From Thermococcus sp. 21S9 (lineage in GTDB: Archaea; Methanobacteriota_B; Thermococci; Thermococcales; Thermococcaceae): a stretch of 64,000 nt of DNA. A program made the position numbers and the translations under genes. Below the pieces are notes generated by a model that made no database searches, was not told the DNA's origin, and saw nothing but the letters and a program-made list of their open reading frames with translations. Below, piece after piece: positions 47,864 through 53,156 of this stretch; positions within the stretch are counted from its first letter, which is position 1; every line of letters begins with the position of its first letter. The stretch is taken from positions 310,001 to 374,000 of the forward strand of contig NZ_SNUS01000001.1 of NCBI RefSeq assembly GCF_012027635.1, written 5' to 3'.

Positions 47864-48603
47864 GAAGCGTTCTTTCAGTCTTTAAGGAAGGTTGACGGGC
47901 AACTTTTGGTAATTTGAGCGTGCTTCACTACAAACCAGCGCCCTTCGGGCGCTAACAGGAGGAAAACACATTCAAAACTGGCAGGTTTGGAAGTAAACCC
48001 CCTAAGAACAAACTATTCAAAAGGCATGCCAACTTTGATGAAACTTTGCCCACAGCCGTTAAGAAAGGCTGGCGAAAAGAGCGCCCTTTCTCCCCAAAGG
48101 GCAAAAAACAGTCGTGCACTAACAAAAGAGCAACCATCAGGGGTTTAACACTACAACAAAACTCCTCGAGAGATTGTTTCAACTTCATATCGGCGCCCTT
48201 CGGGCGCCTTTCTCCAAGTGAAACACTCAAAGATGGAACAAATCTAGTAGAAACCCCCCTAAAACTTGCATTTTAAAAAATGCACTTAACCTTCCGCCAG
48301 CGCTGAAGCTTTTGGAAAAAGCTTCACCAAAAGCTTGTGATTCCTATTTAATGCCTCTTCATCAAGGGATTTTAAACTCTAAACCGGCTCTTAAAGGTTG
48401 AATTTTTCAAAATACACCCCCTTCACGCTGGTTCTACTAAAACCGCGCTCCAAAGGAGCGCAAAAAGGCTTAAACCCCTTTAAAAGGTGCTTTTAAATGA
48501 ATTCACTCTCCAAAAAGAGCAACTCAAAAAGAAATCCACTTAAAAACTGTTCCTCAAAAGGGAATCACAAACTTTGATGAAACTTTTGCTTGGCAAAAGT
48601 TTC
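47864..48603. repeat. Gene-free stem-loop cluster downstream of tRNA-Leu
   Basis: 740 bp, AT-rich, no plausible ORF. It holds many short inverted repeats: AGCGCCC/GGGCGCT (47937), GCCCTTT/AAAGGGC (48083), GGCGCCC/GGGCGCC (48192), TGCATTTT/AAAATGCA (48267), AAGCTTTTGG/CCAAAAGCTT (48306), GCGCTCC/GGAGCGC (48445) and GAAACTTTTGC/GCAAAAGTTTC (48579). The GC-rich stems recur at 47937, 48192 and 48445, that is every ~254 bp, and AACTTTGATGAAACTTT occurs twice (48031, 48570). It looks like diverged tandem units. Confidence 0.6.
48579..48603 (-). terminator. Perfect 11-bp hairpin abutting the tRNA-Leu 3' end
   Basis: GAAACTTTTGC and GCAAAAGTTTC pair over 11 bp around a 3-nt loop. The stem ends at the base next to the encoded CCA of the tRNA. 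It may stop transcription or guide 3' processing. Confidence 0.5.
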
Positions 48604-48691
48604 TGGTGCGGGGGCCGGGATTTGAACCCGGGAACCCCTGCGGGACGGGACCCTAAATCCCGCGCCTTTGGCCAGGCTCGGCTACCCCCGC
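48604..48691 (-). tRNA. tRNA-Leu (anticodon TAG)
   Basis: On the minus strand the 88-nt sequence folds as a class II tRNA: acceptor GCGGGGG/CCCCCGC, D arm GCC...GGC, anticodon stem CGGGA/TCCCG with loop TTTAGGG (anticodon TAG), long variable arm, T arm CCGGG-TTCAAAT-CCCGG, discriminator A and encoded CCA. It reads CUA. TATA-like GCTTTTAAAGG lies about 25 nt upstream (48714-48725). Confidence 0.95.
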
Positions 48692-51717: not shown

Positions 51718-53156
51718 TTTCTAATTCTCTTTGAGTCTTATTGCAACAGGTTCTCACGAAGGAAGACTGCCTTGCGAGGAAGTAGTTTCAATTCTCTTCG
51801 AGTCTTATTGCAACTCCAAGAGCTGACGCCTCCGCGATAGCGAAAAGACCTCCTTTCAATTCTCTTCGAGTCTTATTGCAACCGCCTTCCTGGTGGGTCT
51901 TTACTTTGTGCTTCATAACCTTTCAATTCTCTTCGAGTCTTATTGCAACGAGGCTCACCTTGTTTCTTCTACTTTTATAGTTAGACTTTCAATTCTCTTC
52001 GAGTCTTATTGCAACACGGAGCTCTGGAGGGTTCTCTCCAGGGCCGAATTAACTTTCAATTCTCTTCGAGTCTTATTGCAACGGTTATTCCGTTTGAGCG
52101 CATTGCTCTTCAGATTGCTCTTTCAATTCTCTTCGAGTCTTATTGCAACTTTGAATAATCATGTAGTCGTCGGTGGGCAAACAAACTCCTTTCAATTCTC
52201 TTCGAGTCTTATTGCAACGCATGGGCCTAGGTGAAATTTTGCGGAAGGCAGCCGAACTTTCAATTCTCTTCGAGTCTTATTGCAACTGGGGCAAATGCTG
52301 ACAGAATAGGAGTAATAGACGATAACTTTCAATTCTCTTCGAGTCTTATTGCAACTTCGGCCTGGGGCGTGGGTGAGGTTGGCCTGCTCATCTTTCAATT
52401 CTCTTCGAGTCTTATTGCAACGGGTTCGCCCTGATTTCTGGAGCCTCAGCGGAGGACCCTTTCAATTCTCTTCGAGTCTTATTGCAACAACTCTACCAGG
52501 GCTTTTAAGACTTCCATGAACGCCCTTTCAATTCTCTTCGAGTCTTATTGCAACGTTCGACAGCGTTAACACCGTCCTTAAAGCCGGGATTCTTTCAATT
52601 CTCTTCGAGTCTTATTGCAACTGGAGGAGGGTTTAACGATGGGGAAGGAGATTTATCTCTTTCAATTCTCTTCGAGTCTTATTGCAACGACAACTCTTAT
52701 GATTGGTGGGCTGAAAAGGCGTTCACTTTCAATTCTCTTCGAGTCTTATTGCAACGAACCTGATTCTCCTCCTCAAAATACTTCTTAAGGTCTTTCAATT
52801 CTCTTCGAGTCTTATTGCAACCTGGGGACTGGGTGGCTATTATTGGCCTCCTAATGCCTTTCAATTCTCTTCGAGTCTTATTGCAACGTTCGGAAGTGGC
52901 TCCACTGGGGCTTTTTCCTCGCCCCTTTCAATTCTCTTCGAGTCTTATTGCAACTGGGGCCTCTTTCCTCGCTTCTTTGGTGGTTTATGCCTTTCAATTC
53001 TCTTCGAGTCTTATTGCAACGATATTCTGTCAAGCGTATTAGAGAAGTCGTGAAAGCATCTTTCAATTCTCTTCGAGTCTTATTGCAACGCGATTTCATT
53101 AAGCTGGTCTTTGTGGAGGCCAAAGACTTTCAATTCTCTTCGAGTCTTATTGCAAC
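51718..53156 (-). CRISPR. CRISPR array, 22 repeats and 21 spacers
   Basis: A 30-nt repeat, on the plus strand beginning CTTTCAATTC and ending TTATTGCAAC, is found 22 times with spacers of 36-39 nt. The transcribed (minus) strand starts GTTGCAATAAGACTC and ends ATTGAAAG, which is the 5' tag found on Thermococcales crRNAs. The leftmost copy (51718-51747) has four changes and is the leader-distal, degenerate end; the second copy has G instead of C at its first base. The other repeats are identical. No cas gene lies in the window, so the array must use Cas proteins encoded elsewhere. Confidence 0.97.

Follow-up and report, generated by a model that had tools for sequence, protein, structure and literature searches.

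The locus examined here raises the question of what occupies the space between tRNA-Leu(TAG) and its convergent neighbour in Thermococcus sp. 21S9, where GC-rich hairpins recur beside the tRNA gene. It lies in a window of 64,000 nucleotides, the whole stretch of DNA analysed (contig C1 of the genome designated G000), for which the initial annotation had offered three readings: diverged tandem units of an unknown non-coding element, a decayed integrated element at the tRNA, or a stack of terminators. The first proved right, homologous clusters being present in the same genome and in the genus. The array is probably made up of three members of a family of non-coding, non-autonomous, mobile-like repeats that occurs in Thermococcaceae and is added stepwise at the 3' ends of RNA genes. 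The tRNA link spotted in that annotation is the defining feature of the family.

Layout of the array

Three diverged non-coding units, designated A, X, and Y, lie at 47913-48603 directly 3' of tRNA-Leu on the minus strand, and the array takes up the whole gap between this gene and the stop codon of the convergent gene (Table 1), whose product we take, judging by sequence, to be CoA-binding-like. Read in tRNA sense, the order is tRNA, leader palindrome, unit Y, unit X, and truncated unit A. The leader is the 11-bp perfect hairpin already described as abutting the tRNA, and leader-type palindromes also stand 0-4 nt after the CCA at other arrays. All three GC-rich hairpins are found where they had been placed and represent the apical hairpins of units A, X, and Y; the proposed period of about 254 bp corresponds to measured spacings of 255 and 253 bp. 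AAACCCC does follow each hairpin, pairing with GGGGTTT as the 3' arm of an inner stem around it, but the similar distance claimed for all three holds for the first two (58-59 bp) and not for the third (27 bp), since the third unit belongs to another type. The exact double occurrence of AACTTTGATGAAACTTT was recovered at 48031 and 48570, and the other copy of the junction motif between X and A sits in the leader of Y. The hairpin region, described as having no ORF, is without a credible gene; two listed short ORFs (92 and 76 aa) fall inside the repeat.

Table 1. Features of the array and its neighbours in the window
Feature	Position	Strand	Basis
tRNA-Leu (TAG), RNA gene carrying the array	48604..48691	-	ARAGORN; Rfam RF00005 in own-genome search
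Leader palindrome GAAACTTTTGC-CAA-GCAAAAGTTTC, 0 nt gap to tRNA CCA	48579..48603	-	sequence, fold
Unit Y, tRNA-proximal, complete, sense	48305..48578	-	inverted repeat; nhmmer model Y score 154; compensatory pairs
Unit Y closing stem	48330-48349 / 48556-48575	-	inverted repeat in window self-comparison
Unit Y GC hairpin, GCGCTCCAAAGGAGCGC	48445-48461		
Unit Y distal palindrome, GAAGCTTTTTCCAAAAGCTTC in sense	48305-48325		
Unit X, sense, begins AGCGCTGGCGG	48050..48304	-	nhmmer model X score 171
Unit X closing stem	48294-48302 / 48067-48074		
Unit X GC hairpin, GGCGCCCTTCGGGCGCC	48192-48208		
Unit X end hairpin	48052-48071		
Junction motif AAAGTTTCATCAAAGTT between X and A	48031..48049	-	direct repeat
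Unit A, distal, truncated to model positions 1-128 of 183	47913..48039	-	nhmmer model A score 82
Unit A GC hairpin, AGCGCCCTTCGGGCGCT	47937-47953		
Convergent neighbour gene, 143 aa	47432..47863	+	ORF list

Each unit has close relatives elsewhere. Unit Y has a 97.6% identical counterpart behind tRNA-Leu(GAG) in G000 itself, unit A shares 94% identity with the A unit that follows this same tRNA in genome G013, and unit X scores 134 bits in covariance model R1 (G000:C1:358109-358258). The Rfam search returned no match above the gathering score inside the units; its matches were limited to CRISPR repeats within the window and to tRNA or sR36 at the loci that carry arrays. The CRISPR array comprises 21 repeats (Rfam CRISPR-DR6, minus strand) at window positions 51785-53156, approximately 3 kb from the tRNA.

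Distribution of the family

Compared with itself, the window displays modest similarity among the units, with one 26-nt pair at 85% and one 20-nt inverted pair at 85%. The case against chance is made by matches outside the window and not by this self-alignment. The 740-bp stretch matches approximately 20 other clusters in its own genome, with E-values down to 5e-205 and up to 89% identity over 555 bp, and the search for such units in other Thermococcales that had been proposed at the outset gave matches in 58 of 61 Thermococcus genomes (G000 and 60 others of the genus). The covariance model R1, built on the X core, finds 23 copies in G000 and up to 29 in other genomes, and is present in 48 of 50 near-complete Thermococcus genomes. 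Some genomes of three sister genera carry one to four copies, and among the 115 genomes searched with this core unit no match occurred outside Thermococcaceae.

Named records retrieved with a family pattern belong to Thermococcus or to Thermococcaceae MAGs, plasmid and phage records yielded no phage match and a single 32-bp chance match in plasmids, and one exact family pattern searched against the viral contigs of IMG/VR had no match. No description of the family was found in open-licence papers, a body of literature that omits most subscription journals, and no mention of such transcripts was found in the T. onnurineus transcriptome paper. This non-coding repeat family behind Thermococcus tRNA genes is apparently previously undescribed.

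Architecture of the units

The units measure 180-280 bp and share one plan, with end palindromes on both sides, a closing stem spanning the unit, an inner stem of the GGGTTT/AAACCC type, and an apical GC hairpin. Compensatory pairs occur in both the closing and the inner stems. Among 61 Y sequences, several pairs of the closing stem change jointly from G-C to A-T or back, with ratios such as 42/19 and 40/20. The X-core structure was made by hand and scored against shuffles and slid controls: 20 cells were changed on both sides, compared with 6.6 in shuffles. When the partner was slid by one column, pairing fell from 94% to approximately 53%. RNAalifold applied to the X alignment alone returned few pairs, and a mutual-information ranking of column pairs was set aside, being dominated by two subfamilies. 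The pairing within the units is real. The form under selection need not be RNA; DNA hairpins or template switching between the arms would also fit. Some end palindromes (L038, L042, L079, L142, L143, L144, and L017) contain two extra inserted hairpins, giving cloverleaf or T-shaped forms that recall viral hairpin termini.

Attachment to RNA genes and orientation

All clusters of G000 except L047 adjoin a tRNA gene, and arrays are found at 21 of about 40 tRNA 3' ends in this genome, with the first palindrome 0-4 nt past the CCA; tRNAs that are free of arrays often have a co-directional gene close downstream. Nearly all arrays fetched from other genomes likewise abut a tRNA, the exceptions following the C/D sRNA sR36, a protein gene, a tRNA fragment, or a contig end. 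An independent check used a 28-mer leader pattern, searched across all GTDB genomes with tRNAs playing no part in the search. It retrieved 18 stretches, all in Thermococcaceae MAGs. Of these, 13 begin directly behind a same-strand ARAGORN tRNA; one more is preceded by an intron-containing tRNA and another by a tRNA 3' fragment. The other three either come after a protein gene or are flanked by coding-like sequences. The isolated cluster L047 and the copies behind protein genes or C/D sRNAs indicate that the target is not strictly a tRNA.

Orientation relative to the tRNA is strongly constrained. Where tRNAs are on one side only, X is in tRNA sense in all 49 arrays, and A is so in 11 of 12. For Y, oriented through the mutual similarity of Y units, the ratio is 37:3 next to the tRNA (37 of 40 in sense) and 13:12 further out.

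Arrays lie directly behind the box C/D sRNA sR36 at L099 (4200-4900), L107 (1100-2000), and L017 (978-1037); at L099 and L107 the opposite end abuts a second C/D-like sRNA. At L077 and L127 the array follows just the 3' fragment of a tRNA gene, probably one displaced by an integrated element.

Turnover and polarity

The content of the arrays changes rapidly. In a comparison of 30 species, the unit next to the orthologous tRNA-Leu(TAG) varies among Y, X, and A, and some species have no array there. For 37 of 103 units the nearest relative at another locus lies within the same genome, against 12.7 expected; for only 7 of 103 does it lie behind the same tRNA in a different genome. The X unit behind tRNA-Val(CAC) in G000 shares 98% identity with the X unit behind tRNA-Trp in G013, and this identity ends at the unit borders. 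A sister genus has empty tRNA loci, a decayed X, and a lone half palindrome.

Two pairs of loci exhibit insertion or loss of a single unit at the tRNA-proximal position. At tRNA-Leu(GAG), G000 and G013 (L030 and L082) are co-linear on both sides, with 296 bp (unit Y) in the former and 16 bp in the latter between the tRNA and X. At tRNA-Val(TAC) in the sister genus (L177 and L180), G090 is longer than G073 by approximately 265 bp (unit X) between the tRNA and Y. In both pairs the outer arm of the old leader palindrome has been replaced and its inner part kept, and inspection by eye recognised no target-site duplication at either pair. These single-unit differences would represent gains rather than losses; at Leu(GAG) it is the restored intact leader palindrome that points this way, the outgroup relation fitting either direction. 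Truncation is concentrated at the far end: among 40 one-sided arrays of at least two units, the proximal unit is truncated in none and the distal unit in 16 (p = 5e-6), with p-values serving as guides only, since loci were picked for their sequence similarity and related species do not count as independent.

Proposed explanation

Attachment to tRNA genes, fixed orientation, modules bounded by palindromes, fast turnover, and distal truncation together characterise the arrays. Under the preferred explanation, units would attach directly after tRNA 3' ends, with a box C/D sRNA or protein gene occasionally serving instead. Growth would be polar, each new unit entering between the tRNA and the existing array, replacing the outer arm of the leading palindrome and bringing a palindrome of its own, so that older units would be pushed outward and then decay. 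The leader palindrome is probably the place of addition, and the palindromes may be the sites acted on, either by some recombinase or by template switching in replication. Their persistence probably reflects a tolerance of insertions in the space 3' of a tRNA. The own-genome matches to the array include no autonomous version with a transposase. This counts against the preferred explanation, as do the absence of Y1 transposases from the genomes with the most copies, the lack of a recognised target-site duplication, the incomplete separation of gain from loss, the copies away from tRNA genes, and the compensatory changes, which a pure junk-DNA view would not lead one to expect.

A bolder reading, which we regard as tentative and less likely than a family of mobile-like repeats, is that the units form a separate class of archaeal element, in which structured units would be gained singly at tRNA 3' ends by a dedicated mechanism recognising the leading palindrome and coupled to tRNA transcription. 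Such leader-proximal growth would formally resemble CRISPR acquisition, but of the element's own units.

Alternative explanations

The main rival is host recombination anchored in tRNA genes, which we consider rather unlikely. Stalled or broken ends would invade another tRNA locus through shared tRNA sequence and copy its 3' flank, with no transposition enzyme involved, and chance copy ends would leave truncated distal units. This would account for the fixed orientation, the exact start at the CCA, the mixing of units among tRNA species, the distal truncation, and the nearly identical Y units of the two tRNA-Leu arrays in G000, and tRNA genes are known sites of inversion and integration in Thermococcus (PMC5495485). 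However, different tRNAs have only short stretches in common, copies stand behind C/D sRNAs and protein genes and in one case alone, and random copy ends would not predict sharp unit borders at palindromes.

Second among the rivals is a functional RNA, which appears improbable. The array would be transcribed as a long tRNA 3' trailer whose folded domains end read-through, guide 3' processing, or form a separate ncRNA. The sense orientation of X, A, and proximal Y, the compensatory changes in a conserved structure, and the presence of arrays behind other stable RNA genes such as sR36 favour this reading. Additionally, the sense fold surpasses the antisense fold in 42 of 46 X units, and runs of at least five T in sense amount to 1.4-1.6 per X or Y unit compared with 0.5 in shuffled X, approximately three times the expectation. 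Against this, both strands of the window array fold about 6 SD below dinucleotide shuffles, equally far (z -6.1 and -6.3), and G-U over A-C replacements in well-kept pairs stand at 89:73 (p = 0.12), indicating little RNA-strand signal. The T-rich base skew stays with Y units when they are inverted, so the direction of transcription does not set it, and arrays are absent at half of the tRNAs and decayed or missing in sister species. The sense T runs nevertheless leave room, on sequence grounds, for a possible role in archaeal U-tract termination of tRNA transcription.

That intrinsic terminators are stacked here, or that hairpins have clustered by chance, is suggested by the hairpins and the T-rich sense strand but is very improbable and was rejected as a full explanation: terminator-like sites in the bacterial sense number 2 against 2.1 expected, and the units are homologous across genomes of the genus and concentrated at RNA-gene 3' ends. 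The remnant of an integrated virus or plasmid is the least credible reading and was also rejected, since, even though Thermococcales integrases use tRNA genes (PMC5495485; PMC9897764), the check for att sites found the tRNA 3' end unduplicated at the window locus, coding remnants are absent, plasmid and phage records gave only the chance match, the same units stand complete behind dozens of different tRNAs, and the partial tRNAs at L077 and L127 look like tRNA ends displaced by genuine integration.

Comparison with known systems

The units resemble MITEs in being short, non-coding, multicopy, and intergenic, with inverted-repeat ends and signs of movement; the terminal inverted repeats that serve as a MITE criterion are represented by the palindromes at both ends and the closing stem of each unit. 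Prokaryotic MITEs were reviewed in 2024, and that review lists no Thermococcales family and makes no mention of tRNA (PMC10969869). No autonomous partner was found among own-genome matches to the array, and no target-site duplication was recognised by eye at the two locus pairs. Unlike MITEs, the units are strongly attached to RNA-gene 3' ends, stacked polarly, and structured by nested pairing over their whole length.

With REP/BIME palindromes and PATEs (IS200/IS605, Y1-mobilised) the units share palindromic ends, clusters of alternating combinations, and an intergenic location, but they differ in their tRNA attachment and in the transposase. The Y1 (IS200-type) transposase PF01797 has no copy in G000, G010, and G013, the genomes with the most units, and is present in only 21 of 75 genomes; known REP/IS200-type mobilisation was rejected on the ground that the enzyme is missing from the high-copy genomes. 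A REP palindrome is also several times shorter than the Thermococcus units. The units thus work like a MITE or a REP-type repeat, yet fit only part of either definition.

The rtT repeats behind tyrT of Escherichia coli are likewise tandem non-coding units immediately 3' of a tRNA gene. They comprise units of about 180 bp at one locus that repeat the tRNA 3' end, whereas the present arrays occupy 21 tRNA 3' ends in one genome, mix several unit types, and have no tRNA sequence seen in their units. CRISPR arrays are similar in the polarity of acquisition only, with a new unit at a fixed leader side and old units decaying at the far end, but the present arrays have no spacers and no Cas link, the units themselves being the repeated families.

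If the preferred explanation is true, a fast-changing non-coding tail would follow every second tRNA gene in this model archaeal genus, and small mobile units would be seen with unusual clarity to accrete polarly at tRNA targets with no visible enzyme. The palindromes stand at tRNA genes, known inversion and integration points in Thermococcus (PMC5495485), and may therefore matter for genome shuffling. The units also bear on how archaeal tRNA transcription ends, a point testable in the genetically tractable Thermococcus kodakarensis.

Further repeats beside the arrays

Behind tRNA-Ser at 1480172 in G000, the locus L065 (G000:C1:1478800-1480300) holds a hairpin stack GGGGGTTC...ACGTCCTTCGGACGT...GAACCCCC with the nested plan of the units; the X, Y, and A models miss it, and it is possibly a fourth, diverged unit type. 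At L022, L040, and L107 a second repeat, GGGGGCG(C/T)TAGCCCCC, recurs beside arrays, with some copies carrying a GGAGGTTTGGAAGAAAACGGGG tail.
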